Shown: positions 19,498 to 43,611 of the stretch, piece after piece
Layout of the letters: every line of letters begins with the position of its first letter
Numbering within the stretch: position 1 is the stretch's first letter
NCBI RefSeq assembly: GCF_032116555.1
Contig: NZ_CP134949.1
Location: forward strand, 2,790,001 to 2,854,000
Direction of reading: 5' to 3'
Origin: Halobaculum sp. XH14
GTDB taxonomy: Archaea > Halobacteriota > Halobacteria > Halobacteriales > Haloferacaceae
Length of the DNA stretch: 64,000 nt
Position numbers and translations under genes: made by a program
The notes under the pieces: generated by a model
The model's database searches: none
Told to the model about the DNA's origin: nothing
Seen by the model: the letters and a program-made list of their open reading frames with translations, nothing else

Positions 19498-20220
19498 TCA
19501 GACGTCCGCCAGTTCGGCGTGGGCGTCCCGCACGCCCTCGACGGTCTCGCGGACCGCGTCGACGCCCTCGTCGTGGAGCAGGTCGCCGACGACGATGGTG
19601 TCGGCGTGTTTTCCCATCTCGTGTGCCGAGTCGTAGTCGTGGATGCCGCCGCCGTAAAACAGCGTCGCGTCGTCGAGTGCCGCCCGTGCCGCGCCGACCG
19701 TCTCCGTGTCGCCGAAGGTGCCCGAGTACTCGACGTAGACGATCTCCTGGCCGAACATCCGCTCGGCGACGCGGGCGTAGGCGGCCACGTCGTCGGCCGA
19801 GAGGTCGCAGTCGGCGTCGGTCAACTGGGCGACGGAGGCCTCGGGGTTCAGGACGATGTACGCCTCGGTGTGGGTGCGCTCCCAGTCGAGGCCGTTGTCG
19901 ATGCGGACCCACTCCTTGTGCGCGCCGGTGATCCAGAACGGCCCGCCCGCGTTGAACACCGTCGGGACGAGGTAGCCGTCGAGCGCGTCGTCGTCGATGA
20001 CGACGCCGGGGTTCGAGGGCTCCTGGTACAGCGGGACGTCGTACGCCTCGCAGGCGTCGACGACGCGCTGCATCTTGTCGGCGGTGATGTCGAGGGTGCC
20101 GCCGATCTCGATGGCGTCGGTGCCCGTCTCGCAGACGTCCGCGAAGGTGTCGCCGTCCCGCAGGTCCTTGTCCGGGTCCACCTTCAGGACGTGGTCCCAG
20201 TCCGTCCAGGGCGTGCTCAT
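19498..20220 (-). CDS. geranylgeranylglyceryl phosphate synthase (PcrB family)
   Basis: Makes the first ether bond of archaeal membrane lipids from glycerol-1-phosphate and geranylgeranyl diphosphate. The 240-residue TIM-barrel protein shows the family signature positions: [75 protein letters not shown] and [10 protein letters not shown], where the last two form the phosphate-binding loops. Convergent with the Lrp gene. A TATA-like stretch (TTTTTAGCC read on the minus strand, near 20250) lies about 30 bp before the ATG. Confidence 0.95.
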
Positions 20221-20271
20221 TCGTGGGTGTGAGTGTGCGAGGAGGGCTAAAAAGAGCGCGGATTGGGGTAC

Positions 20272-20487
20272 TCAAAGTCGGTCGTGAAACCGCTCGGCCC
20301 GCTCGTACACCTCGTCGACGTGGTCCACGTCGGATCGGTGGATTCGGCCGGCGAACGATTCCCAACTGCAGTTGGAGGCGGAACAGTCGAAGTAGACCTT
20401 CCAGGATGAGGGTTCCTCCTTCACGCCGTATCTGAGGTCGGAGCCACATCGCGGACAGCGTCCGGAGTCGGTTCGCCGCATGATCAT
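20272..20487 (-). CDS. small zinc-ribbon protein, function unknown
   Basis: 71 residues from ATG 20487 (a second ATG, 20481, is two codons inside). CPRCGSDLRYGV and FDCSASNCSW give two cysteine pairs suited to one zinc, followed by an acidic and basic helix (VDEVYERAERFHDRL). It is divergent from the McrB-like gene, with 90 bp between starts, and sits at the left edge of the low-GC island, so it may be a cargo gene or regulator of that island. The overlapping 622-residue minus-strand frame is a shadow of the McrB gene. Confidence 0.6.
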   Translation of the reverse strand: MIMRRTDSGRCPRCGSDLRYGVKEEPSSWKVYFDCSASNCSWESFAGRIHRSDVDHVDEVYERAERFHDRL

Positions 20488-20577
20488 CGATGCGGCGTCT
20501 GGTCCCGTTATCCGTGAAGAACTCTCGCGTGGAATGCCACCTACATTTTTGTCGGCTCGACTGAACTGGACGGTAAC

Positions 20578-22116
20578 ATGGCATACGACGGGCCCAGGGT
20601 CTTTCTCGTACCGTCGAGCGGCGACGCTGCCCGCGACAACCTCGAACGGACCGTTCTGGAGGGGATCTCCTCTGAGGTGCTGGGAGAGTTTACCGACCGG
20701 GAGTTCCCCGATGGCCTCGTTCCTATCTGGGGAACTAAGGAGGGAAACAAGTCGACGTGGGACCAGATCGAGTCCGGTGATTATCTCCTCTACTACCGGA
20801 CCGGCGTGTACGACTACGCCGCCCGCGTCCTCGGAACCGAGACGAACGAACCACTCGGCAAGGAACTCTGGCCGAACTACGAGGAGGGAGACCCGTGGCG
20901 CTACATCATTTATCTCGATCAGGTTACCGAGGTCGACGTCCCACGCGACGAGATCAACGACCTCGCCGGCTATTCGGACTCGTTTGCGCCCCGTGGCTTT
21001 CAGACGCTCAACGACATGGGCGTCGGCGGAATTCGAGGAAAGTACGGTTCCGTCGAGAAGTTGACTGGCGAATCGAGGGGCTACGTGGAGGCCGGTGACG
21101 TCGAAACGGCTGCTGACCTTCACGTGGACCTTCCTGAGAGCCTGCTCTCGGACCTCCACTTCCCCGGGGACCAGGGCGAGGAGATCGTCGAGCAACTCAC
21201 CTCCGCGCTCAACGCCGGTAAACACGTCATCTTCACCGGCCCGCCGGGGACCGGCAAGACCGAAATCGCCCGGCTGACCTGCAAGTATCTCGAATCCGAA
21301 CAGGACTCGCTGTTCACCGGCTACCAGATGACGACCGCGACTGCCGACTGGTCGACGTTCGAGACCGTCGGTGGATACATGCCGAACGAGTCGGGGAGCG
21401 GCGAACTGGAGTTCGAACCGGGACAGATCCTCCGGCGGTTCAAACGGAACGGCGTCCAGCAAAACGAGCCGCTGATCGTCGACGAGATCAACCGTGCCGA
21501 CATCGACAAGTCGTTCGGGCAGTTGTTCACCCTGCTGTCCGGTCAGGCCGTCCAGCTTCCGTTCAAGCGCGACGGCGAGGAGATCGAGGTGCTTCGCGGG
21601 GAGGAGTTCGACGGCGAACTCGCCTCCCACCGGTACGTGAAGCCGGCCTCCTGGCGGCTGTTCGCGACGATGAACAGCTACGACAAGACCTCGCTGTACG
21701 AGCTTTCGTACGCGTTCATGCGACGGTTCGCGTTCATCCACGTCGACGCCCCGACGATACCCGGCGAGGACGAGCAGGAAGAGTTTGTCCGCGAGTACGC
21801 CGAGACGTGGGGAATCGACGCCGAACCCGAGACACTCCAGGGCGTCGGGGCGGTCTGGCGGGCCGCGAACACCGCCGTCGAGGACCGGAAGATCGGCCCT
21901 GCCATCATCAAGGACCTGCTCACGCACGTCCACGGCTCGAACGGCGACAGGCGCGAGGCGCTGACGCAGGCGGTCGCTAACTACGTCTACCCGCAACTCG
22001 AAGGTGTCCCCCGTCGGAAGCGAATCGTCGAGGAGATCGCCTCGACGGACGCGGTGAACGGGGTCGAACTCCGGAAACTGGCCCGGAGCGTCCTGAGCGT
22101 GACGCCGGATGAATAG
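20578..22116 (+). CDS. McrB-like AAA+ NTPase with N-terminal EVE/PUA-like domain
   Basis: 512-residue protein. Residues 1-150 resemble an EVE/PUA-like reader (RVFLVPSSGDAARDNLERT, WDQIESGDYLLYYRTG, AARVLG) with several Trp/Tyr that could form a base-flipping cage. The AAA+ part has Walker A GPPGTGKT (about 221-228), Walker B LIVDEINRAD (about 298-307) and ATMNSYDKTSLYELSYAFMRRF (about 363-384), which sits where McrB has its NTADRS GTP signature. McrB proteins drive type IV restriction of modified DNA. The next gene overlaps by 8 bp and encodes a PD-(D/E)XK protein, so the pair is a McrBC-like defence system. Base composition is less GC-rich than neighbours. Confidence 0.85.
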   Translation: MAYDGPRVFLVPSSGDAARDNLERTVLEGISSEVLGEFTDREFPDGLVPIWGTKEGNKSTWDQIESGDYLLYYRTGVYDYAARVLGTETNEPLGKELWPNYEEGDPWRYIIYLDQVTEVDVPRDEINDLAGYSDSFAPRGFQTLNDMGVGGIRGKYGSVEKLTGESRGYVEAGDVETAADLHVDLPESLLSDLHFPGDQGEEIVEQLTSALNAGKHVIFTGPPGTGKTEIARLTCKYLESEQDSLFTGYQMTTATADWSTFETVGGYMPNESGSGELEFEPGQILRRFKRNGVQQNEPLIVDEINRADIDKSFGQLFTLLSGQAVQLPFKRDGEEIEVLRGEEFDGELASHRYVKPASWRLFATMNSYDKTSLYELSYAFMRRFAFIHVDAPTIPGEDEQEEFVREYAETWGIDAEPETLQGVGAVWRAANTAVEDRKIGPAIIKDLLTHVHGSNGDRREALTQAVANYVYPQLEGVPRRKRIVEEIASTDAVNGVELRKLARSVLSVTPDE

Positions 22117-23458
22117 GGACGACCTGCTCGAACGGCTCACGCAGGACGTCTTCGCCTACGTGATGCACGGCGGATACCCCGAGGACCGATTCGTTGGGGA
22201 GATCCGACCGGAGGGGCTGGACGAACGGTTCGACGACTTCGAGTCGCTGGTCAGGCTCCACTTCGTCCTCCGACCCGAGGTGGTCCAGTTCGTCGAGGAG
22301 TTGCCGAATCGGATTCGGAGCGTGAAGACACAGACCCGAAACGTCTCGTCGACGAACCGCGGCCGCGTCGACGGTCGCATCGACTGGTCGTCGACCATTC
22401 GAGAACGGTACTCCAGAGCGCCGAGCGACACCTCGCTGTTCGTCTGTGACAACAGAACCGAGAGCTACGACATCGACGAAAACGTCGTCCTGAAGCGACT
22501 CCTGTCGATCATCTACGACACGCTCCGCGACTGCGAGACGCACCTGAAGAACGAGTACGAGTGGGTGGCCGACAGGTGGAGCGAGAACCTCGAACTCGTT
22601 GACGTCCTGACCGAGACGTTCGAGCGGAACGTCCACGTCACGCGGATTCGAGACCCGAAGGAGTACGAACCTACCGAGCGGATGCTCCAGACGGCGGAGG
22701 AATCCCGGAACGAGATTTACCGTGAGGCCGCCGGGCTGCTCCGAGAGTACGAGGACGCCGCCTCGGGGGACCGTGATGCGATTCGAACTCTGCTCGACGA
22801 GACCGCGATTACACCGGACGACGACGAGACGCTCCTCGAACTGTTCGTCCTCTTCCGGTACATCCGAGCGATCGAGGACTTCAGGAGCGAGGAGTTCAGC
22901 ATCCGGACGATCGAATCCGGTTCCCAGGAGGTGGCCAGAATGGAGGGCGACGACGCGGAGTTCGTGTTGTATCACGACCAGTCTGCTCAGGATCGCGACG
23001 TCACGTTCGTCACCGAGGAGAAGGACGCACCCGAGACCGATCTGGGCCGTGCGGAGATGGTGAAACGGAAAGCCCGCGAGGTCGAGGCTCACTACTTCCT
23101 CGACGACGAGACGAGCCCACGGACCAACAGGCCCGACGTCATCGTTCTGGAAGTGAGAACCGAGGACCAGTTGAAGTACCTCATCACCGAAGTCAAGAAC
23201 GCAACTCGACAGGAGACGATCCGCCAGGGAATCGAGGAGACGCTGGAGTATCTCGCGTTCCTCCGGCAGGATGACGAGTTCGTCTTCGACCGCGACACCG
23301 AGTTCTTCGGGAACGGCTGGAACGGCCTGCTCGTGATTCAGGACCTCGAAGACGCCGAGACGAGGAGTCTCGACGAGCAGGAGTCGATCAGAATCCTGCA
23401 GGCGTCAGAGGTCGAATCCGGAATCAAGGACGTTCTGGAGAACGCTGTTTCGACCTGA
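22109..23458 (+). CDS. PD-(D/E)XK nuclease-like partner of the McrB-like NTPase (McrC/DUF2357-like)
   Basis: 449-residue protein overlapping the McrB-like gene by 8 bp. The N-terminal half has PNRIRSVKTQTRN and RGRVDGRIDWSSTIRERYS then YDIDENVVLKRLLSIIYDTL, a layout seen in the DUF2357/McrC-type partners of McrB ATPases. The C-terminal third has a PD-(D/E)XK-like core: RPDVIVLEV (about 340-348), then YLITEVKNAT (about 357-366), with the E-x-K on the second strand. The inference is a nuclease that cuts when the NTPase recognises its DNA. McrC proper is shorter, so this may be a distinct subtype. Confidence 0.75.
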   Translation: MNRDDLLERLTQDVFAYVMHGGYPEDRFVGEIRPEGLDERFDDFESLVRLHFVLRPEVVQFVEELPNRIRSVKTQTRNVSSTNRGRVDGRIDWSSTIRERYSRAPSDTSLFVCDNRTESYDIDENVVLKRLLSIIYDTLRDCETHLKNEYEWVADRWSENLELVDVLTETFERNVHVTRIRDPKEYEPTERMLQTAEESRNEIYREAAGLLREYEDAASGDRDAIRTLLDETAITPDDDETLLELFVLFRYIRAIEDFRSEEFSIRTIESGSQEVARMEGDDAEFVLYHDQSAQDRDVTFVTEEKDAPETDLGRAEMVKRKAREVEAHYFLDDETSPRTNRPDVIVLEVRTEDQLKYLITEVKNATRQETIRQGIEETLEYLAFLRQDDEFVFDRDTEFFGNGWNGLLVIQDLEDAETRSLDEQESIRILQASEVESGIKDVLENAVST

Positions 23459-23507
23459 AACCGGTGGGTCCGGAAGTTTATACGACAATACGCCCAAACG
23501 GAGGGTA

Positions 23508-23777
23508 ATGACCGAAATCGTCAGGGACGACGCTCACAGCGACGGGGCACCCACCATCGATGGCACCGGCATCCGGGTCATCAACGTGGCGAGCGCCTAC
23601 GTCCACAGCGGCTACTCCCCCGACGAGATCGTGGACTTCTACCCCTCGCTCTCGCTGGCAGACGTCCACTCGGCGCTGGCGTACTACTACGACCACGTCG
23701 ACGAGTTCGACGTCGAGTCGGCGAGGAACGAACGCGACGGCGAGGGCGGCGCGGGCAACGAGGAAACGCCTGCGTGA
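23508..23777 (+). CDS. DUF433-family antitoxin-like protein
   Basis: 89 residues with the DUF433 core (GTGIRVINVASAYVHSGYSPDEIV then YPSLSLADVHSALAYYYDH). DUF433 is a helix-turn-helix-like antitoxin regularly paired with DUF5615 toxins, as here: the toxin's GTG start overlaps the stop by 4 bp. TATA-like AGTTTATACG near 23475 and a GGAGG just before the ATG mark its own promoter after the McrBC-like pair. The acidic glycine-rich tail is likely disordered. Confidence 0.87.
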   Translation: MTEIVRDDAHSDGAPTIDGTGIRVINVASAYVHSGYSPDEIVDFYPSLSLADVHSALAYYYDHVDEFDVESARNERDGEGGAGNEETPA

Positions 23778-24103
23778 TCTACGCGGACGAGAACGTCTGG
23801 CTTCCGGTCGTCGAGGGACTCCGCCGTCGTGGATGGGACGTGACGACAGCGAGAGAGGAGGACACCATCGGAGACGAGGATGAAGCGCAACTTCGATACG
23901 CCGCGGCACGCGGCTGGGTGGTGCTCACGTTCGACGACGACTTCCTCGGTCTCGTCGAGACGGAGTTCGTCGACATCGACCATGCAGGGGTGATTTACGT
24001 TCCACAGTACGGAAACGGCGTCGGCGAACTCGTGCGCCGCGTCGATTCGACGCTCGAACGGAACGCCGACCGCGACCTAACGGACGAAGTGTTGTACGCG
24101 TAG
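23774..24103 (+). CDS. DUF5615 PIN-like toxin
   Basis: 109-residue PIN-like (Mut7-C/DUF5615) protein from GTG 23774. The acidic residues expected of the active site are at MIYADENVW (Asp5, Glu6), DEDEAQLRYAAARG and VVLTFDDDFLG (about 50-60). It is translationally coupled to the DUF433 gene, which is the usual type II arrangement; an RNase toxin role is inferred. It closes the defence-type island begun at 20.3 kb. Confidence 0.87.
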   Translation: MIYADENVWLPVVEGLRRRGWDVTTAREEDTIGDEDEAQLRYAAARGWVVLTFDDDFLGLVETEFVDIDHAGVIYVPQYGNGVGELVRRVDSTLERNADRDLTDEVLYA

Positions 24104-31841: not shown

Positions 31842-33755
31842 TCAGACGTGCTCGTCGAGGAACTCGGCGATCGCCTCGAACTCCGTGATGAGGTTCTCGC
31901 GGCTCGTCGTGTGGTGGCCCTCGTCCTCGAAGATCAGTTTCTCGACCGGCACTCCCTGCTCGCGGGCCGCCTCGGCGACCTGCTCGGCCTCGCCGACCGG
32001 CACCCGCGGATCGTTCGCGCCGTGCTGGACGAACAGCGGGCACCGGATCTCGTCGACGTGCGTGAGCGGCGAGATGGACTTCAGGAACTCGTAGTCGTCC
32101 GCGAGGCTGCCGTACTCGGCCTCACGGTGGCTCCGCCGCCACTCGCCGGTGTTCTCGAGGAACGTCGTGAAGTCCGCGATGCCCACGAAGTCGACCGCGG
32201 CGGCCCACAGGTCGGGGTACTCCGTGATCGCCGCGAGCACCATGAACCCGCCGTACGAGCGCCCGTAGGCGACGACGCGGTCGGAATCGACCGCCCGCTG
32301 CTCCCCGAGCCACTCCACCGCGGCGGCGACGTCCGCGACCGAGTCCATCCGCCGTTCCACGTCGTCGAGGTGGGCGTACGCCGTCCCGTAGCCCGAGGAG
32401 CCGCGGACGTTCGGCTCCAGCACCGCGTAGCCGCGGTTCAGGAAGTACTGCTTCGTCGGATAGAACCACGGCCGGCGCTGGTGTTCGGGCCCGCCGTGGA
32501 CGTCGACGATGACCGGGACGGGCTCCTCGGGCGTCGCGCCGTCTGGCATCGCCACCTCGCCGGCGTCCGGCGGTGCCGGCTCGGGCATCGTCCAGTACGC
32601 CGGGATCTCGCGCCCGTCGAACGTCTCGTAGTGGATCGTCTCGGGTTCCCGGAACGACGCCTCCGGCACGCCGTTCGTCCCGGCCGGCGTCCAGTCGGCC
32701 GAGTCGCGCTCGCCCCAGTCGGTCACCCGGACGCCGTACGGCTCCGTCGGGGCCGTGTGGGTGAACGCCACCCGCTCGGCGTCGGGGCCGAACGCGAACT
32801 CGGACGCGATGCCGTCCACGTCGGGCGCGTCGGCGGGGGTAAACTCGGTGCCCTCGAGGGTGCCCGCGCGGACCGCCGAGTAGCCGTCCTCGTTGCGCGC
32901 GAAGACGGCCCGGCCGGCGTCGCGGTCGTACGCCAGCGCGTCCACGTCCCAGGCGTCGGTTCCGGGTTCTCCGCTCTGATTCCCGTCGCCTCCTGCGACT
33001 TTCTCGAGTTCGCCAGTGGCGAGATCGAACCGTCCCACGTAGGCCGTGTCCGTACCGTGGTCGGTGACGCAGTAGAGCCCGCCCGCGCCGTCGAACTGGA
33101 GGTGCGAGTAGGTCGCCCCGGCGTCGTCCGAGAGCGTCCGGGGCGTGCCGGAGTCGAGATCCAGCAGCGACAGATCCACGTCGTAGCTGGAGTGGGGGTT
33201 CAGGAGGGCGAGTCGCTCGCCGCGCGGGCCGAACGCGGCGACGGTGAGCCAGCCGCCGGGGCCCTCGTGGAGCTTCCGCGGACTACCGTGTGCGTCGCCG
33301 TCGCCGGGCCGCCCGACCCGCTGCACGTACACGTCGAACCGGCCGTCGGCCTCCCGGTTCGCGGTGTAGGCGACCCGCTCGCCGTCGGGCCCCCACGCAC
33401 CCCAGGCGTGCTTGGCCGTCGGCTCGTCGGTCAGCGCCGTCTCGACGCCGGTTTCGAGGTCGTAGTGGGAGAGCTGGTCCCGCTCGTCGCTGCCGGCGTC
33501 CATGCCGAAGACGAACGCCTCGTCGGTCGGCGAGGCCGCGAGCGTCGAGACGCGCTCCTCGTGGGGTGTGAGCCGCCGGGGCCACGCGCCCGGCTCGTCG
33601 GTCGTCCAGACCTGTGGCGTCCCTGAGGTGTCGGCGAGAAACAGCAACCGGCCGCCCGGCGTGAACGCCGGCGAATTCACCTGCTCGACCGCGAGGTACC
33701 GCGCCACGCCGTAGCCGGTCGTCCCCGCGTCGGTATCGGGGTCGGAGTCAGTCAT
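31842..33755 (-). CDS. S9-family serine peptidase (prolyl oligopeptidase/acylaminoacyl peptidase type)
   Basis: 637-residue two-domain peptidase. The N-terminal 370 residues form a WD/beta-propeller with repeated strand blocks (GRLLFLADTSGTPQVWTTDE; GERVAYTANREADGRFDVYV). The C-terminal alpha/beta-hydrolase domain has the nucleophile in YGRSYGGFMVLAA (about residue 493), Asp in HGANDPRVPVGEAEQV (about 580) and His in FEDEGHHTT (about 612). No signal peptide, so cytoplasmic peptide turnover is likely. Monocistronic. Confidence 0.93.
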   Translation of the reverse strand: MTDSDPDTDAGTTGYGVARYLAVEQVNSPAFTPGGRLLFLADTSGTPQVWTTDEPGAWPRRLTPHEERVSTLAASPTDEAFVFGMDAGSDERDQLSHYDLETGVETALTDEPTAKHAWGAWGPDGERVAYTANREADGRFDVYVQRVGRPGDGDAHGSPRKLHEGPGGWLTVAAFGPRGERLALLNPHSSYDVDLSLLDLDSGTPRTLSDDAGATYSHLQFDGAGGLYCVTDHGTDTAYVGRFDLATGELEKVAGGDGNQSGEPGTDAWDVDALAYDRDAGRAVFARNEDGYSAVRAGTLEGTEFTPADAPDVDGIASEFAFGPDAERVAFTHTAPTEPYGVRVTDWGERDSADWTPAGTNGVPEASFREPETIHYETFDGREIPAYWTMPEPAPPDAGEVAMPDGATPEEPVPVIVDVHGGPEHQRRPWFYPTKQYFLNRGYAVLEPNVRGSSGYGTAYAHLDDVERRMDSVADVAAAVEWLGEQRAVDSDRVVAYGRSYGGFMVLAAITEYPDLWAAAVDFVGIADFTTFLENTGEWRRSHREAEYGSLADDYEFLKSISPLTHVDEIRCPLFVQHGANDPRVPVGEAEQVAEAAREQGVPVEKLIFEDEGHHTTSRENLITEFEAIAEFLDEHV

Positions 33756-33931: not shown

Positions 33932-33954
33932 TCGGCATACGTCGGGTATGCCGA
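33932..33954. promoter_or_regulatory. 9-bp perfect inverted repeat before the acidic operon
   Basis: TCGGCATAC, 5-nt spacer, GTATGCCGA; 58 bp before ATG 34012 in the divergent gap with the S9 peptidase gene. A dimeric regulator site is the simplest reading. Confidence 0.45.
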
Positions 33955-34011: not shown

Positions 34012-34791
34012 ATGCCATCCTGCCCCGACGACGAGGCGAGCCCAGTTGTCGAGTCGCGGTCGGACGCACGGGCCGGCCAGCCGCGGGACGCCGGAAGTGG
34101 GGACGAGCGACCGGCGGAGCACCCGCGTCGGCCGGTCACCGATGGCGGCGAGGACGAGGCGGAGGAAGCCGAGGAGGACGGGAGCGAACACGAGCAGAAC
34201 GGGAACGAACAAGAGCAGGACGAGGAAGCGGCCGAGGAGTCGGCCGCGGAAGCCGAGCAGGAGACGCCGGAGGAGGCCGAGGACGACGAGGAGTCCGCGG
34301 AGGAGGAACGGGATGGGGAGACATCGGAAGAGGATGAGGGCCGCTCGCGCGTCCTCCACCTCGACCTCCAGGGGCTGTTCCTCGACCTGCTCGGCCTCGA
34401 AGTCGACCTGAACGAGGTCGTCCTGGACGTCGACGCCGTCGAGGGGAACGACAACCTGCTGGGTAACCTCCTCTCGGGCGTCGCTGGCCTGCTCAGTCCG
34501 CCCACCGGCGGCGGCCTCAGGGGGCTGCTCGGTAGCCTGACCGACTTCGACGGCGTCGGCGGGTTCGGCGGCCTCGGCGGCCTCCTCGGGTCCTCGGACG
34601 AGGATGACGAGGAGGGGGAGGGACGCATCTCGGGGATGGTCTCGTCGGCGAAGGAGTCGGTGTCGGAGACGGCGGGCGACGCGCTGGAGGAGGTGGACCT
34701 CAACGACCTGCTGACGGACCTCCTGAAGGAGTTCGTGAACCAGCTGTTCGAGACGAGTTCAGACGAGTCGAACGGGGAGTCCGAGTCATGA
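34012..34791 (+). CDS. acidic protein with GNLLGNLL motif domain
   Basis: 259 residues, function unknown. Residues 35-110 are almost entirely acidic low complexity. Residues 112-160 read VLHLDLQGLFLDLLGLEVDLNEVVLDVDAV then GNDNLLGNLLSGVAGLL, a domain seen in many bacterial and archaeal hypothetical proteins, which commonly has Cys where this one has Ser (NLLS). A glycine/leucine-rich stretch and an amphipathic helix (DLNDLLTDLLKEFVNQLFE) follow. It heads a four-gene operon whose next ATG overlaps its stop (ATGA). Confidence 0.75.
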   Translation: MPSCPDDEASPVVESRSDARAGQPRDAGSGDERPAEHPRRPVTDGGEDEAEEAEEDGSEHEQNGNEQEQDEEAAEESAAEAEQETPEEAEDDEESAEEERDGETSEEDEGRSRVLHLDLQGLFLDLLGLEVDLNEVVLDVDAVEGNDNLLGNLLSGVAGLLSPPTGGGLRGLLGSLTDFDGVGGFGGLGGLLGSSDEDDEEGEGRISGMVSSAKESVSETAGDALEEVDLNDLLTDLLKEFVNQLFETSSDESNGESES

Positions 34792-35141
34792 GCGACGACG
34801 GCGGCGGCGACGCGGAGGCGGGCGGACTGCTGGAGACCGTCGAGGGCATCGACTTCGAGGAGGTGTTCGAGGGGACGCCGCTGGAGGGCTCGTTCGCGGA
34901 GAGCGGGTCCGTCTCCGAGACCGTCGGCGGCTACATGGGGTCGGTCGTCGGCAGAAGCGTCGGCGAGTGGCTCGGCGGCCTCGTCGCCGGCGCTCTGCTC
35001 AGCGCGCTCGAGGTGGGTGGGGAGGAAGGGGAGAACGAGGAGGGCGAAGACGTGGGGGAGGAAGAGGAGGACGACGGCGGCGAAACGGAGCGAGACGAGG
35101 AGGAAGAACCCGACGACGGAGAGGGCGGGGAGTCGGCGTGA
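34788..35141 (+). CDS. small acidic protein of the acidic operon
   Basis: 117 residues, not recognised. The first 75 residues look folded and contain a glycine-rich amphipathic helix (GGYMGSVVGRSVGEWLGGLVAGALLSALE); the rest is a Glu/Asp tail. The same VGRSVGEWLGG-like helix idea recurs in the third gene (VGRALGATVGRRLGREL), so the products may be related or interact. Translation is coupled to gene 1 through ATGA. Confidence 0.65.
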   Translation: MSDDGGGDAEAGGLLETVEGIDFEEVFEGTPLEGSFAESGSVSETVGGYMGSVVGRSVGEWLGGLVAGALLSALEVGGEEGENEEGEDVGEEEEDDGGETERDEEEEPDDGEGGESA

Positions 35142-35178
35142 CCCGCACCCGCTGCCGGTTCGCACGGGGTGAGCGTCC

Positions 35179-36018
35179 GTGAGCGACGCGCCGGACCCCA
35201 GGGAGGCCCTCCTCGACGAATTCACCGAGCAGACGGACCTCCGGGATCTGGTGAGCGGCGACGACCTGACCGAGCGACTCGACCTCGAATCGCTGGGTCG
35301 GGCCGTCGGCAGGGCGCTCGGGGCCACGGTGGGGCGACGGCTCGGACGCGAACTCTCACGTCGCGTCCGGTCGGCGGTCCCGTTCGTCGGCGGGTCGGAC
35401 CGGGACCGACCGTCGGTCGGGCGCGTCCTCGAGGCGCTGGCCGTCGCCGTCGTCAGGACGGTCTCCCGGCCGCCGTACCGCGGCGCGATCGGCGACGCGC
35501 TGTCCGCGCTGGTCGAGAAGCGCGAGGCGGCGCGGGAGGCAGCCGAGTCCGCCGAATCGACGGTCGAGGACGCAACGGAAGCGGCAGGGGAGACGGCGGA
35601 GAGTGCGACCGAAACGGCCGGGGAAACGGCGGAGTCGGCCGCCGACGCCGCGTCGGACGCCGGGTCGAGCGCAGCCGACGTGCTGCCGACCGACCGGGAC
35701 GACATCAAGCGCGACACGTACCGCGAACTGCTGGAGGTGCTGTCGTACTCGGACCTCCAGTCGGTCGCCAAATCGGTCGACGTGACGGCGAACCTGAGCC
35801 GCGAGGAGATGATCGACGCCATCGTCGAGGAGTTCTCCGCGGGGGACGTCGAACGGGGCGAGGGAGAATCGGAGGACGACGGCGAGGGTGACGGGGACGA
35901 AGCGAACGACGACGGCGACGAAGCGAACGACGACGGCGACGAAGCGAACGACGACGGCGACGAAGCGAACGACGACGGCGAGGATGACGGAAACGGAGCC
36001 GACGGGGGGAGCGACTGA
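35179..36018 (+). CDS. acidic coiled-coil/SAP-like protein of the acidic operon
   Basis: 279 residues from GTG 35179. Order: helix with VGRALGATVGRRLGRELSRRV (about 42-62), an alanine-rich AESAEST/ETAESATETAGETAESA repeat helix (about 115-165), then YRELLEVLSYSDLQSVAKSVD with SREEMIDAIVEEF (about 176-213), which resembles a SAP or Rho-N-like nucleic-acid-binding helix pair, and a disordered tail with four GDEANDD repeats. Function unknown. Its stop overlaps the next ATG (TGATG). Confidence 0.7.
   Translation: MSDAPDPREALLDEFTEQTDLRDLVSGDDLTERLDLESLGRAVGRALGATVGRRLGRELSRRVRSAVPFVGGSDRDRPSVGRVLEALAVAVVRTVSRPPYRGAIGDALSALVEKREAAREAAESAESTVEDATEAAGETAESATETAGETAESAADAASDAGSSAADVLPTDRDDIKRDTYRELLEVLSYSDLQSVAKSVDVTANLSREEMIDAIVEEFSAGDVERGEGESEDDGEGDGDEANDDGDEANDDGDEANDDGDEANDDGEDDGNGADGGSD
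35896..35979 (+). repeat. four 21-bp tandem repeats inside a coding region
   Basis: GACGAAGCGAACGACGACGGC repeated four times without visible change, coding GDEANDD in the tail of the third acidic-operon protein. Identical copies suggest recent slippage expansion. Confidence 0.85.
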
Positions 36019-36713
36019 TGGGCGAGGACGTCGCCGGGGACCGGGAGGACCGGTCGCTGGAGCTCACGGAGCAGTTCTCCGAGACGGCCGAGGCCGTCGC
36101 CCCCCTGCTCGATTCCGACGACGGTGGCTCGCCCGACGACGAGGAGGCGGCCCGGGAGACCCTCGGGGACCTGGCGGCGACGGTCCGCGACGCGGGGTTC
36201 GACGACCTGCTCCGCGCGGCCGGCGTGGAGAACCTCCCGGAGGACCCGACGCCGGCCGACCTCCCGGAGCTGATGGCCGACGCGGACGAGGGTGACCTTG
36301 CCGTGGTCCGTCGCCTGCTCGGTGCCCGCGACCTGGCCGACGGGTGGGACGCGATGGAGTCCGACGAGCGGACCGAGCGGCTCATGGACCTCTTCGGCGG
36401 CGTCGCCGACGTGGACGAAAAAGCGAGGGAGGGCGGGGAGAAAGCGGAGTCGGATGACGCCGAAGCGGAGACCGACTCGCTCGCCGACCGACTCCGGGAG
36501 GCCGCGGACGAACTCGTTGCGGGTGAGGGGTCGGAGGCCGACGAGGACGACGGGAGCGACGAGGGCGAGACGGACGAGGACGAAGCCGAGCGGCGCTCGG
36601 ATCGAGAGTTCCCCGGCCGACGGCGGCGCTACTCGTCGGTCCCGTCGCGCAGGCCGGACATGCGCGGCGTGGGGCGCGCGTCGACGATGCCCCGGCGCAG
36701 GCGCGACGGGTAG
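36018..36713 (+). CDS. acidic helical protein of the acidic operon
   Basis: 231 residues, not recognised. The N-terminal 140 residues are helical and acidic (ELTEQFSETAEAVAPLLDS, ETLGDLAATVRDAGFDDLLRAAGV, DLPELMADADEGDLAVVRRLLGARDLADGW). A Glu/Asp linker follows, then an abrupt strongly basic tail (about 198-231; GRRRRYSSVPSRRPDM and MPRRRRDG), unusual in a haloarchaeon and suited to nucleic acid or acidic-partner binding. Last gene of the four-gene operon. Confidence 0.7.
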   Translation: MGEDVAGDREDRSLELTEQFSETAEAVAPLLDSDDGGSPDDEEAARETLGDLAATVRDAGFDDLLRAAGVENLPEDPTPADLPELMADADEGDLAVVRRLLGARDLADGWDAMESDERTERLMDLFGGVADVDEKAREGGEKAESDDAEAETDSLADRLREAADELVAGEGSEADEDDGSDEGETDEDEAERRSDREFPGRRRRYSSVPSRRPDMRGVGRASTMPRRRRDG

Positions 36714-36747: not shown

Positions 36748-38118
36748 TCAGTCGGCGAGGCGTTGGTCCGCGAGGCGCCGGAGGACCGCCGCCGTCGTCC
36801 GGATGCCGTTCTCGAAGCAGTCGAGGTCGAGGTGCTCGTTGGGCGAGTGGTTGCCCTGGTCGGGGTTCGCGTACGGGACGACGAGCACCGGCACGTCGGC
36901 GAGCGCGTCGACGCGCCGGAAGAACGCGGCCGGGAGCGACCCGCCCAGCACCGGAAGTTCGACCGGTTCGTCGCCCCAGACGGCCGCGAGCGCGTCTCGA
37001 ACCGGGCCGGCGGCCGGGGCGTCGACCGGCGTCTTCATCGGCGGGAACGTCGTCCCCTTCGTCACCCTCACGTCGGGGTGTTCGTCGGCGACGTGGTCCC
37101 GGAGAGATTCGAAGACTGCGTCGGGGTCCTGGCCAGGAACCAGCCGGCAATCGCACTTGGCCGTGGCCTCGCTGGGGATGACGGTCTTGCTTCCCTCGCC
37201 CTGGTAGCCGGAGTCGAGGCCGTTGACGCTCAGCGTCGGTTCGAGGAGGAGCCGCTCGTAGTACGACCGGTCGGTCGCGAGGTGGGTGAGCCCGAGTTCC
37301 TCCCTGATCTCGTCCTCGTCGTCCGGGAGGCGGTCGACCAGTTCCCGGTCGGCGTCGGTCACCTCGCTGCCCTCGTGGAAGCCCTCGACCGTGACCCTGT
37401 CGCCGTCCACCATCGAGGCGAGCACCTCGGTCAGTTCCGTCGCGGCGTTGGGGACCGGCCCGCCGAAGTTGCCCGAGTGGAGGTCGGCGTCGGCGGTCGT
37501 CAGGTCGAGCCGGAACGTCAGGATGCCGCGGTTGCCGTAGATGAGCGTCGGTCGGCCGCTCCGATGCTGGGGGCCATCGGCCACGTACACGAGGTCGACG
37601 TCGGCCAGGGCGTCGGGACCGGTCGCCAGGTAGTCCGCGAGCCCGCGACTGCCCGACTCCTCGCCGCCCTCGACGAGCAGCTTCACGTTCACGTCCGGGA
37701 GTTCTCCAGCCCTGTCGAGCGCGTCCACGGCGAACGCGTGGCAGGCGAACTGGCCCTTGTTATCGCCGGCGCCGCGGGCGTAGATTGCGCCGTCGCGGAC
37801 CGTCGGCTCGAACGCCGGCGAGTCCCACGCGCCCGGGTGTTCTGCGGGCTGGACGTCGTAGTGGCCGTAGAACAGCACCGTCGACGCGTCGTCGTTCGCG
37901 TCGGCGAGCCGTTCGGCGTACACCGCCGGATAGTGGTCCGTTTCGACTCGCCGCGCGTCGAAGCCGTGATCCGCGAGGAACTCGCGGACCGCGTCGGCGC
38001 CCTCGTCCATCCCCTCGCCGGTCGCGCTGACGGTGGGCCGAGCGAGGAGGTCGAACAGCGCCCCGCGGTAATCGTCGATCCGGTCATCGATCGTCGCGCC
38101 GACGTCGCCCGTGCTCAT
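36748..38118 (-). CDS. M20-family metallopeptidase (dipeptidase/ArgE-DapE type)
   Basis: 456 residues from ATG 38118 (MSTGDVGAT); the open frame continues upstream through low-quality codons. Zinc ligands are in FYGHYDVQPAEH (about residue 80), GDNKGQ (about 115) and VEGGEESGSRG (about 148-158, with the catalytic Glu); the dimerisation domain follows from about 190 (ADLHSGNFGGPVPNA). The architecture fits carnosinase-like dipeptidases that act on short peptides in the cytoplasm. It is convergent with the acidic operon, 35 bp apart. Confidence 0.9.
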   Translation of the reverse strand: MSTGDVGATIDDRIDDYRGALFDLLARPTVSATGEGMDEGADAVREFLADHGFDARRVETDHYPAVYAERLADANDDASTVLFYGHYDVQPAEHPGAWDSPAFEPTVRDGAIYARGAGDNKGQFACHAFAVDALDRAGELPDVNVKLLVEGGEESGSRGLADYLATGPDALADVDLVYVADGPQHRSGRPTLIYGNRGILTFRLDLTTADADLHSGNFGGPVPNAATELTEVLASMVDGDRVTVEGFHEGSEVTDADRELVDRLPDDEDEIREELGLTHLATDRSYYERLLLEPTLSVNGLDSGYQGEGSKTVIPSEATAKCDCRLVPGQDPDAVFESLRDHVADEHPDVRVTKGTTFPPMKTPVDAPAAGPVRDALAAVWGDEPVELPVLGGSLPAAFFRRVDALADVPVLVVPYANPDQGNHSPNEHLDLDCFENGIRTTAAVLRRLADQRLAD

Positions 38119-38222
38119 CGGTGGGACGGGCACGCCCGGCGGCTTCGGTGTTGCGGGGCCGGCGGGCCGTGCTGGTTCGGCGACAGCGTTCAAGTGGCTC
38201 GCGCGGAATCGCCCGGACTGCC

Positions 38223-38447
38223 ATGGACGAAGCACTAGAAGCCGTCGAGGTCATCGCCGATTCGGGACTGGAGGGCGCGTTCGTGTGGCTGCTCAGGCTC
38301 CTCGGCCTCCTTGCGATCGCAGGAGGGCTGGGCCTCTGGCTGTTCACCGAGATGGGCCTGCTCGTCATGCCGGCGCTGCTCGTCGTCGTCGGGGTCGTGC
38401 TGCTCGTCGCGCCGAGCGTCCTGCTCGCGCTCGCGGAACTGACGTGA
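38223..38447 (+). CDS. small two-helix membrane protein
   Basis: 74 residues from ATG 38223; the longer frame begins inside the M20 gene's promoter. A short acidic N-terminus is followed by two hydrophobic helices (about 20-45 and 48-70) with a turn at FTEMGLL. Uncharacterised haloarchaeal type, divergent from the M20 peptidase gene. Confidence 0.65.
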   Translation: MDEALEAVEVIADSGLEGAFVWLLRLLGLLAIAGGLGLWLFTEMGLLVMPALLVVVGVVLLVAPSVLLALAELT

Positions 38448-43168: not shown

Positions 43169-43611
43169 CTACCCGGATCGCTCCTGCTCCCGTTCGCGCG
43201 CGTGATCCTCCACGTCCTCCAGCGATTCGTACTCGAGAAGCCGGTCGAGCTTGCGCTCGAACTGCTCGTCGGTCAACTCGCCGCGCGCGTAGCGGTCCCG
43301 GAGGGTCTCGATCGCGTCGCGGCTGGTTTCGTCCGGCTCGTCGGCGTCGTCGCGTTCGGTCGCGTCCTTCGACGTCGATCCGCCCCACGACCACCAGTCG
43401 TCGCCCCAGTTGTCCTCCCACCACTCCTCGACGTCCTCCTCGTCGCCGAACACAGCGCGACCAGCGGGACGACGACGACGTAGCCCAGCAGCAGCGCCGC
43501 CAGCCACCAGCTCTGTCCGGTGAACAGCGCGGCGAGCCAGATGCCGGTGACGACCGTCCCGGCGATCTCGGTCGCGTTCTCCCGGAGCCGGTCACGAGGT
43601 GTCGCGGCCAT
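43169..43611 (-). pseudogene. SHOCT-domain membrane protein, frameshifted
   Basis: From ATG 43611 one frame gives MAATPRDRLRENATEIAG and two membrane helices ending YVVVVPLVAL. The expected continuation, VFGDEEDVEEWWEDNWGDD, a linker and the SHOCT helices (AIETLRDRYARGELTDEQFERKLDRLL), lies in another frame to 43169. The switch is near 43452-43458, where one added base restores an intact protein of about 147 residues with the same order as the SHOCT gene at 13.1 kb. Recent mutation or sequencing error cannot be told apart. Confidence 0.8.

Follow-up and report, generated by a model that had tools for sequence, protein, structure and literature searches.

We found that four consecutive genes of Halobaculum sp. 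XH14, here called A, B, C, and D, form what is very likely an accessory gas-vesicle (gvp) operon of the haloarchaea whose gas vesicles lack GvpC, detached in this host from the main gvp cluster. The association of these genes with gas-vesicle genes is very secure at the level of sequence. Because they are found only with gvp genes, and only where GvpC is absent, their products are very probably undescribed gas-vesicle parts. The support comes from genome comparison: an obligate co-occurrence with gvpA, conservation of the operon, repeated linkage to gvp genes, and homology between D and GvpI.

The window analyzed was a stretch of 64,000 nt (NZ_CP134949.1, positions 2,790,001 to 2,854,000), in which the operon occupies positions 34012 to 36713 (Table 1). 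The haloarchaeal chromosome around it has a GC content of about 0.70; a dip to 0.62 to 0.63 occurs at window positions 20001 to 24000. A first-pass annotation, made from the sequence alone, had described four coupled reading frames (ATGA, GTG after 37 bp, TGATG) encoding extremely acidic proteins without assigned function, and we confirmed this description. The predicted pI values are 4.05 to 4.1, and Asp plus Glu make up 28 to 33% of residues; the window's other 49 called genes average 16.8% (SD, 6.1). Searches of A to D against Pfam and NCBIfam matched no model at its cut-off. The motifs named in that annotation were also found, namely DNLLGNLL in A, VGRSVGEWLGG in B, VGRALGATVGRRLG in C, and an Arg-rich tail in D. 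One further short, very acidic open reading frame (112 aa, 31% Asp plus Glu) lies outside the operon at window positions 43169 to 43507. The neighbors of the operon are on the opposite strand and resemble, by eye, S9-type (31842 to 33755) and M20-type (36748 to 38235) peptidases. Since relatives of one or both are kept in congeners of the host and are mostly missing near other carriers of A to D, the operon is a separate unit.

Table 1. Features of the A-to-D operon and its upstream region (window coordinates)
Feature	Position	Strand	Description and basis
Gene A	34012..34791	+	259 aa, acidic, LLGNLL core domain; ORF, and presence in 130/162 gvp+ versus 0/230 gvp− genomes of Halobacteria
Gene B	34788..35141	+	117 aa, small, acidic; ATGA overlap with A; ORF, alignment
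Gene C	35179..36018	+	279 aa, acidic; GTG start, 37 bp after B; related in part to B; ORF, alignments, B/C profile cross-matches
Gene D	36018..36713	+	231 aa, acidic, GvpI-like; TGATG junction with C; hhalign to GvpI-position proteins
A, long acidic linker	34132..34329	+	Follows conserved TDGG motif; alignment
A, conserved core	34330..34512	+	VLHLDLQGLFLDLLGLEVDLNEVVLDV...NLLGNLLSGVAGLL; 74% mean column identity; alignment
B, glycine-spaced amphipathic helix	34914..35015	+	Invariant G34, G42, G46, G50 of core; alignment
C, glycine-spaced helix	35284..35376	+	Invariant G44, G48, G52, R53, G56; alignment and model helix 36-66
C, SAP/Rho-N-like three-helix domain	35695..35841	+	AlphaFold2 pLDDT 94-97; Foldseek to Rho 5jjl and DEK 8kcy
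D, Arg-rich tail	36618..36710	+	RYSSVPSRRPDMRGVGRASTMPRRRR; counterpart of GvpI tail STVP...; alignments, GvpC-type GvpI tails
Inverted repeat upstream of A	33932..33954		9 bp, perfect, 5-nt spacer; real, not conserved

The perfect 9-bp palindrome upstream of A, noted in the first-pass annotation, does exist (TCGGCATAC-5-GTATGCCGA), is unique within the window, and is unlikely to have arisen by chance (1 of 100 shuffles of the window). It is not conserved in congeners of the host. We considered and rejected it as a regulatory site shared with the gvp genes because it is absent from the host gvp locus and from the congeners; on the same grounds it is probably incidental.

A search for C in 60 relatives gave 18 matches, and in the 18-kb regions around them all four genes were found grouped in a constant order. 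Relatives of A to D directly adjoin gas-vesicle genes in loci L026, L027, L034, L037, and L038; Pfam identified GvpH, GvpF/L, GvpK, GvpO, and Gas_vesicle among the neighbors. An independent scan of public genomes yielded 71 haloarchaeal loci, with A in 71, B in 67, C in 66, and D in 61, and with the full A-B-C-D order in 61. The genes are real, since the ordered set is conserved across dozens of genera. The scaffold proposed in the first-pass annotation is partly borne out, in that the conserved order supports a dedicated assembly module inherited as a unit, and its members are not scattered singly among genomes. At 13 or more of the 71 loci, gvp genes lie within 6 kb of the module (binomial P, about 1e-16). 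At least four arrangements were seen (between gvpH and gvpI, on either side of gvpO, and after gvpM), and linkage to gvp must thus have arisen or persisted in several lineages. The first of these, in which A with B or C stands between gvpH and gvpI, recurs in eight relatives (L037, where a B/C-like gene accompanies A inside the gvp operon, and L171, L175, L183, L193, L068, L072, and L084). In the window's own genome the operon is not beside the gvp cluster: gvpO, gvpA, and then gvpF, -G, -H, -I, -J, -K, -L, and -M lie at about 3,198,680 to 3,204,150 of C1, about 372 kb away. Neither GvpC nor GvpN was found in the host genome.

We surveyed 392 Halobacteria genomes, scoring A by its core and calling a genome gvp+ if it had a match to PF00741 (GvpA/J/M). 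PF00741 was present in 162 genomes and the A core in 130. All 130 genomes with A had gvpA, and A was found in none of the 230 genomes that lacked it (Fisher's P = 1e-73, from genome counts uncorrected for phylogeny). Counted by genus, A was present in 40 of 53 gvp+ genera versus 0 of 33 gvp− genera (P = 2e-13). The C profile matched 45 of the 48 A-bearing genomes tested, and A was not seen outside Halobacteria in a sample of 295 genomes from the phylum. The phyletic profiling that the first-pass annotation had called for thus found A to D co-inherited and A confined to gvp+ Halobacteria genomes. The association is with gas vesicles, and the envelope or nucleic-acid context suggested earlier is unsupported. 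PF00741 matches usually number 3 per genome but reach 8 to 10 in G160, G218, G222, and G237, all of genus g41. Weak matches to C in four gvp− genomes (G031, G043, G045, and G058) were rejected as nonrelatives because the alignments covered no more than the SAP-like end or low-complexity stretches of other proteins; rejected matches of this kind include uS3 in L032, L036, and L039 and an Hsp20-like protein in L033. No phage record matched the module, and only two plasmids did, both from Haladaptatus and with the genes annotated as hypothetical. Haladaptatus halobius (L077, L080) carries copies of the module on the chromosome and on plasmids NZ_CP085341.1 and NZ_CP085342.1.

The distribution of the module is complementary to that of haloarchaeal GvpC, the shell-stiffening protein. 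Of the 392 genomes, 14 gave strong matches to PF05465 (GvpC); A is absent from all of these 14, and the C profile gave one weak match among them. The 162 gvp+ genomes are therefore divided into 130 with A, 14 with GvpC, and 18 with neither at a detectable level. The division runs within genera: in both g51 and g56, GvpC occurs in one species and A in another. GvpN was found in all 14 GvpC genomes versus 22 of the 48 A-bearing genomes tested. When GvpF, -G, -J, -K, -L, -A, and -M were concatenated for tree building, all GvpC clusters fell into one clade, so the exclusivity of A and GvpC may reflect a single switch, one event rather than many. Next to this clade are L067 and L158, whose divergent GvpC-like genes are missed by PF05465, and one genome (G057) has A plus a second gvp cluster with a divergent GvpC-like gene. 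These gene contents are most fairly read as two types of gvp cluster, with A to D accompanying the one that lacks GvpC, also in genomes where the operon is unlinked.

A is not an absolute requirement for gvp, since it was not detected in 18 gvp+ genomes. These genomes are scattered across the Gvp tree, which suggests that the module was lost repeatedly. Among them, B, C, and D are still present in G216, from which the A core has been lost, and a B/C-like gene is found at the gvp locus in five others.

D is a distant paralogue of GvpI, as judged from profile comparison. It aligned with proteins at the gvpI position over 234 columns (hhalign probability, 99.2; E = 9e-20), and its profile also matched GvpI of A-bearing gvp clusters. 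The similarity spans the tail, which means that the "abrupt" Arg-rich tail noted in the first-pass annotation is present and is that of a GvpI relative. With GvpI, D has in common the STVP/Arg-rich tail and, as in the long forms, an acidic helical N-terminal part; unlike GvpI, D is acidic overall, does not end in the R-(I/L)-YG-R-(F/L) motif, and is encoded outside the gvpH-gvpJ slot. We call D a paralogue, and not GvpI, because it stands last in A-B-C-D and a separate GvpI, also present in the host, fills that slot. GvpI itself differs between the cluster types. In GvpC-type clusters (L141 to L153 and L052) it is a short, basic protein of 113 to 160 aa with a median pI of 10.6. The GvpI of A-bearing, GvpC-less clusters is a long, acidic one, with medians of 313 aa and pI 4.1. 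Earlier work on Natrialba magadii noted only a GvpI extension and one extra gene (PMC3403918), and no account of the module appears in the gas-vesicle literature we found. As far as that literature goes, the gas-vesicle system is known and the A-to-D module is new. Homology to Gvp proteins is limited to D, with no known Gvp homologue found for A, B, or C.

The C-terminal three-helix domain of C was modeled confidently by AlphaFold2, and residues 173 to 221 superpose on Rho and DEK-SAP at 0.9 to 1.7 Å, a likeness at the fold level only (E above 1, 16 to 17% identity, no Pfam match). The model supports a predicted SAP/Rho-N-like fold, as had been proposed from the sequence. B and C have a glycine-spaced helix in common, their profiles cross-match, and in some relatives they are fused. 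The AlphaFold2 model of A was of low confidence (pLDDT, 58). Its LLGNLL core recurs, with 66% identity over 50 residues, in Salipaludibacillus proteins (L117:5644-6231 and L138:5641-6231) that have a signal-peptide-like N terminus and no gvp genes nearby. Unlike A, these proteins are probably secreted and have no acidic linker; the core is thus not confined to gas-vesicle use.

C resembles GvpC in plan, with helices, an acidic linker, and a small C-terminal domain, but it lacks the PF05465 repeat, which matched nothing in A to D, and the zinc-finger-like end. Also unlike gvpC, neither C nor any other gene of the module lies directly downstream of gvpA. The C-terminal domains of GvpC and GvpC-like proteins vary: most are zinc-finger-like, those of L067:16555-17577 and L158:9684-10934 look SAP-like by eye, and that of L153:458-2083 looks helix-hairpin-helix-like by eye. 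We do not claim homology between C and GvpC because the profile of the SAP-like domain of C had no match in the divergent GvpC-like proteins.

What the module does can be approached through the proteins with which it is associated. Deletion of gvpC gives weak, misshapen vesicles, and deletion of gvpI gives very long ones; GvpI binds GvpH, GvpC, and GvpL and multimerizes GvpJ, GvpK, and GvpM (PMC4390858, PMC7688916, PMC9501494). We infer that A to D contact gas vesicles or their assembly complex. The four proteins would be produced alongside the gas-vesicle proteins and would attach to the vesicle while it grows or once it is complete. The basic tail of D would give it a GvpI-like role as an adaptor and in length control; B and C would sit on the shell or the assembly complex via their glycine-spaced amphipathic helices, with C presenting its SAP-like domain; and A would provide its conserved core and an acidic skirt. 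Jointly they would take on the stabilizing and shaping done by GvpC in Halobacterium or form an extended assembly complex. That they stand in for GvpC as a shaping and stabilizing coat, with D as the adaptor, is plausible, at close to even chances, and we favor it over a purely assembly-related role. Stated more fully, A-B-C(-D) may be a second, unrelated solution to the reinforcing and shaping of gas vesicles, a multiprotein acidic coat that replaces GvpC in most gvp-bearing haloarchaea and is often encoded away from the gvp cluster, an idea to which we give somewhat less than an even chance. Weighing against the overall reading of A to D as an accessory operon of GvpC-less gas vesicles are the distance of the host operon from gvp, the gvp+ genomes without A, the single GvpC clade and Fisher P values that ignore phylogeny, the coexistence of A and a divergent GvpC-like gene in G057, and the poor model of A.

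The module might instead be an assembly, nucleation, or chaperone complex that works with GvpF to GvpM and is not part of the shell, D being a second GvpI and A to C its partners. The paralogy of D, the eight insertions between gvpH and gvpI within the accessory operon, and the interactions known from Halobacterium, where GvpH binds GvpI, both bind GvpF/GvpL, and GvpI multimerizes GvpJ, K, and M (PMC7688916), make this a serious contender, if a tentative one. Taken alone, however, it leaves unexplained why GvpC-type genomes keep GvpI, and mostly GvpH, yet never have the module. Regulation of gvp expression and positioning of the vesicles in the cell are both less likely than shaping or assembly. 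The SAP/Rho-N-like end of C could serve a regulator replacing GvpD/GvpE, and gvpDE as well as gvpC are absent from species of this type (PMC4390858), but some GvpC+ species also lack gvpDE (PMC4390858) and GvpC genomes have no A. Moreover, D is related to GvpI and not to a regulator, no DNA-binding feature is seen in A or B, and GvpC-like proteins have small C-terminal domains too, with no known regulatory role, all of which makes regulation improbable. The same domain, and glycine-spaced helices that could insert or oligomerize, might anchor vesicles to the membrane or nucleoid or aid their partition; this leaves the exclusivity with GvpC unexplained, and we regard it as quite improbable. It is least probable of all, and very unlikely, that the gas-vesicle link is a lineage artifact, produced by an unrelated acidic operon that happens to occur in the same clades. 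The GvpC clusters are one clade and the species are related, so the counts are not independent, but the absence of A from all gvp− genomes, its tracking of gvp-cluster type within genera, several independent linkages, and the D-GvpI homology argue otherwise.

Haloarchaeal gas vesicles are understood from Halobacterium and Haloferax, both of which use GvpC. Among gvp+ genomes theirs is the minority type, with a clear GvpC in 14 of 162 versus the A module in 130. Species of Halopiger, Haladaptatus, Natrinema, Natrialba, and Natronobacterium are listed with gvp genes but with neither gvpC nor visible vesicles, and whether these genes are expressed was left open (Pfeifer 2015, PMC4390858). We found A to D in four of these five genera (Halopiger, Haladaptatus, Natrinema, and Natrialba). 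If the module does form a coat, it could explain the apparent inability, to date, of haloarchaea without GvpC to form vesicles. With the missing parts at another locus, the question of expression and vesicle formation becomes testable in Haloferax volcanii, the standard host without gvp, and the module may offer new parts for engineered gas vesicles.
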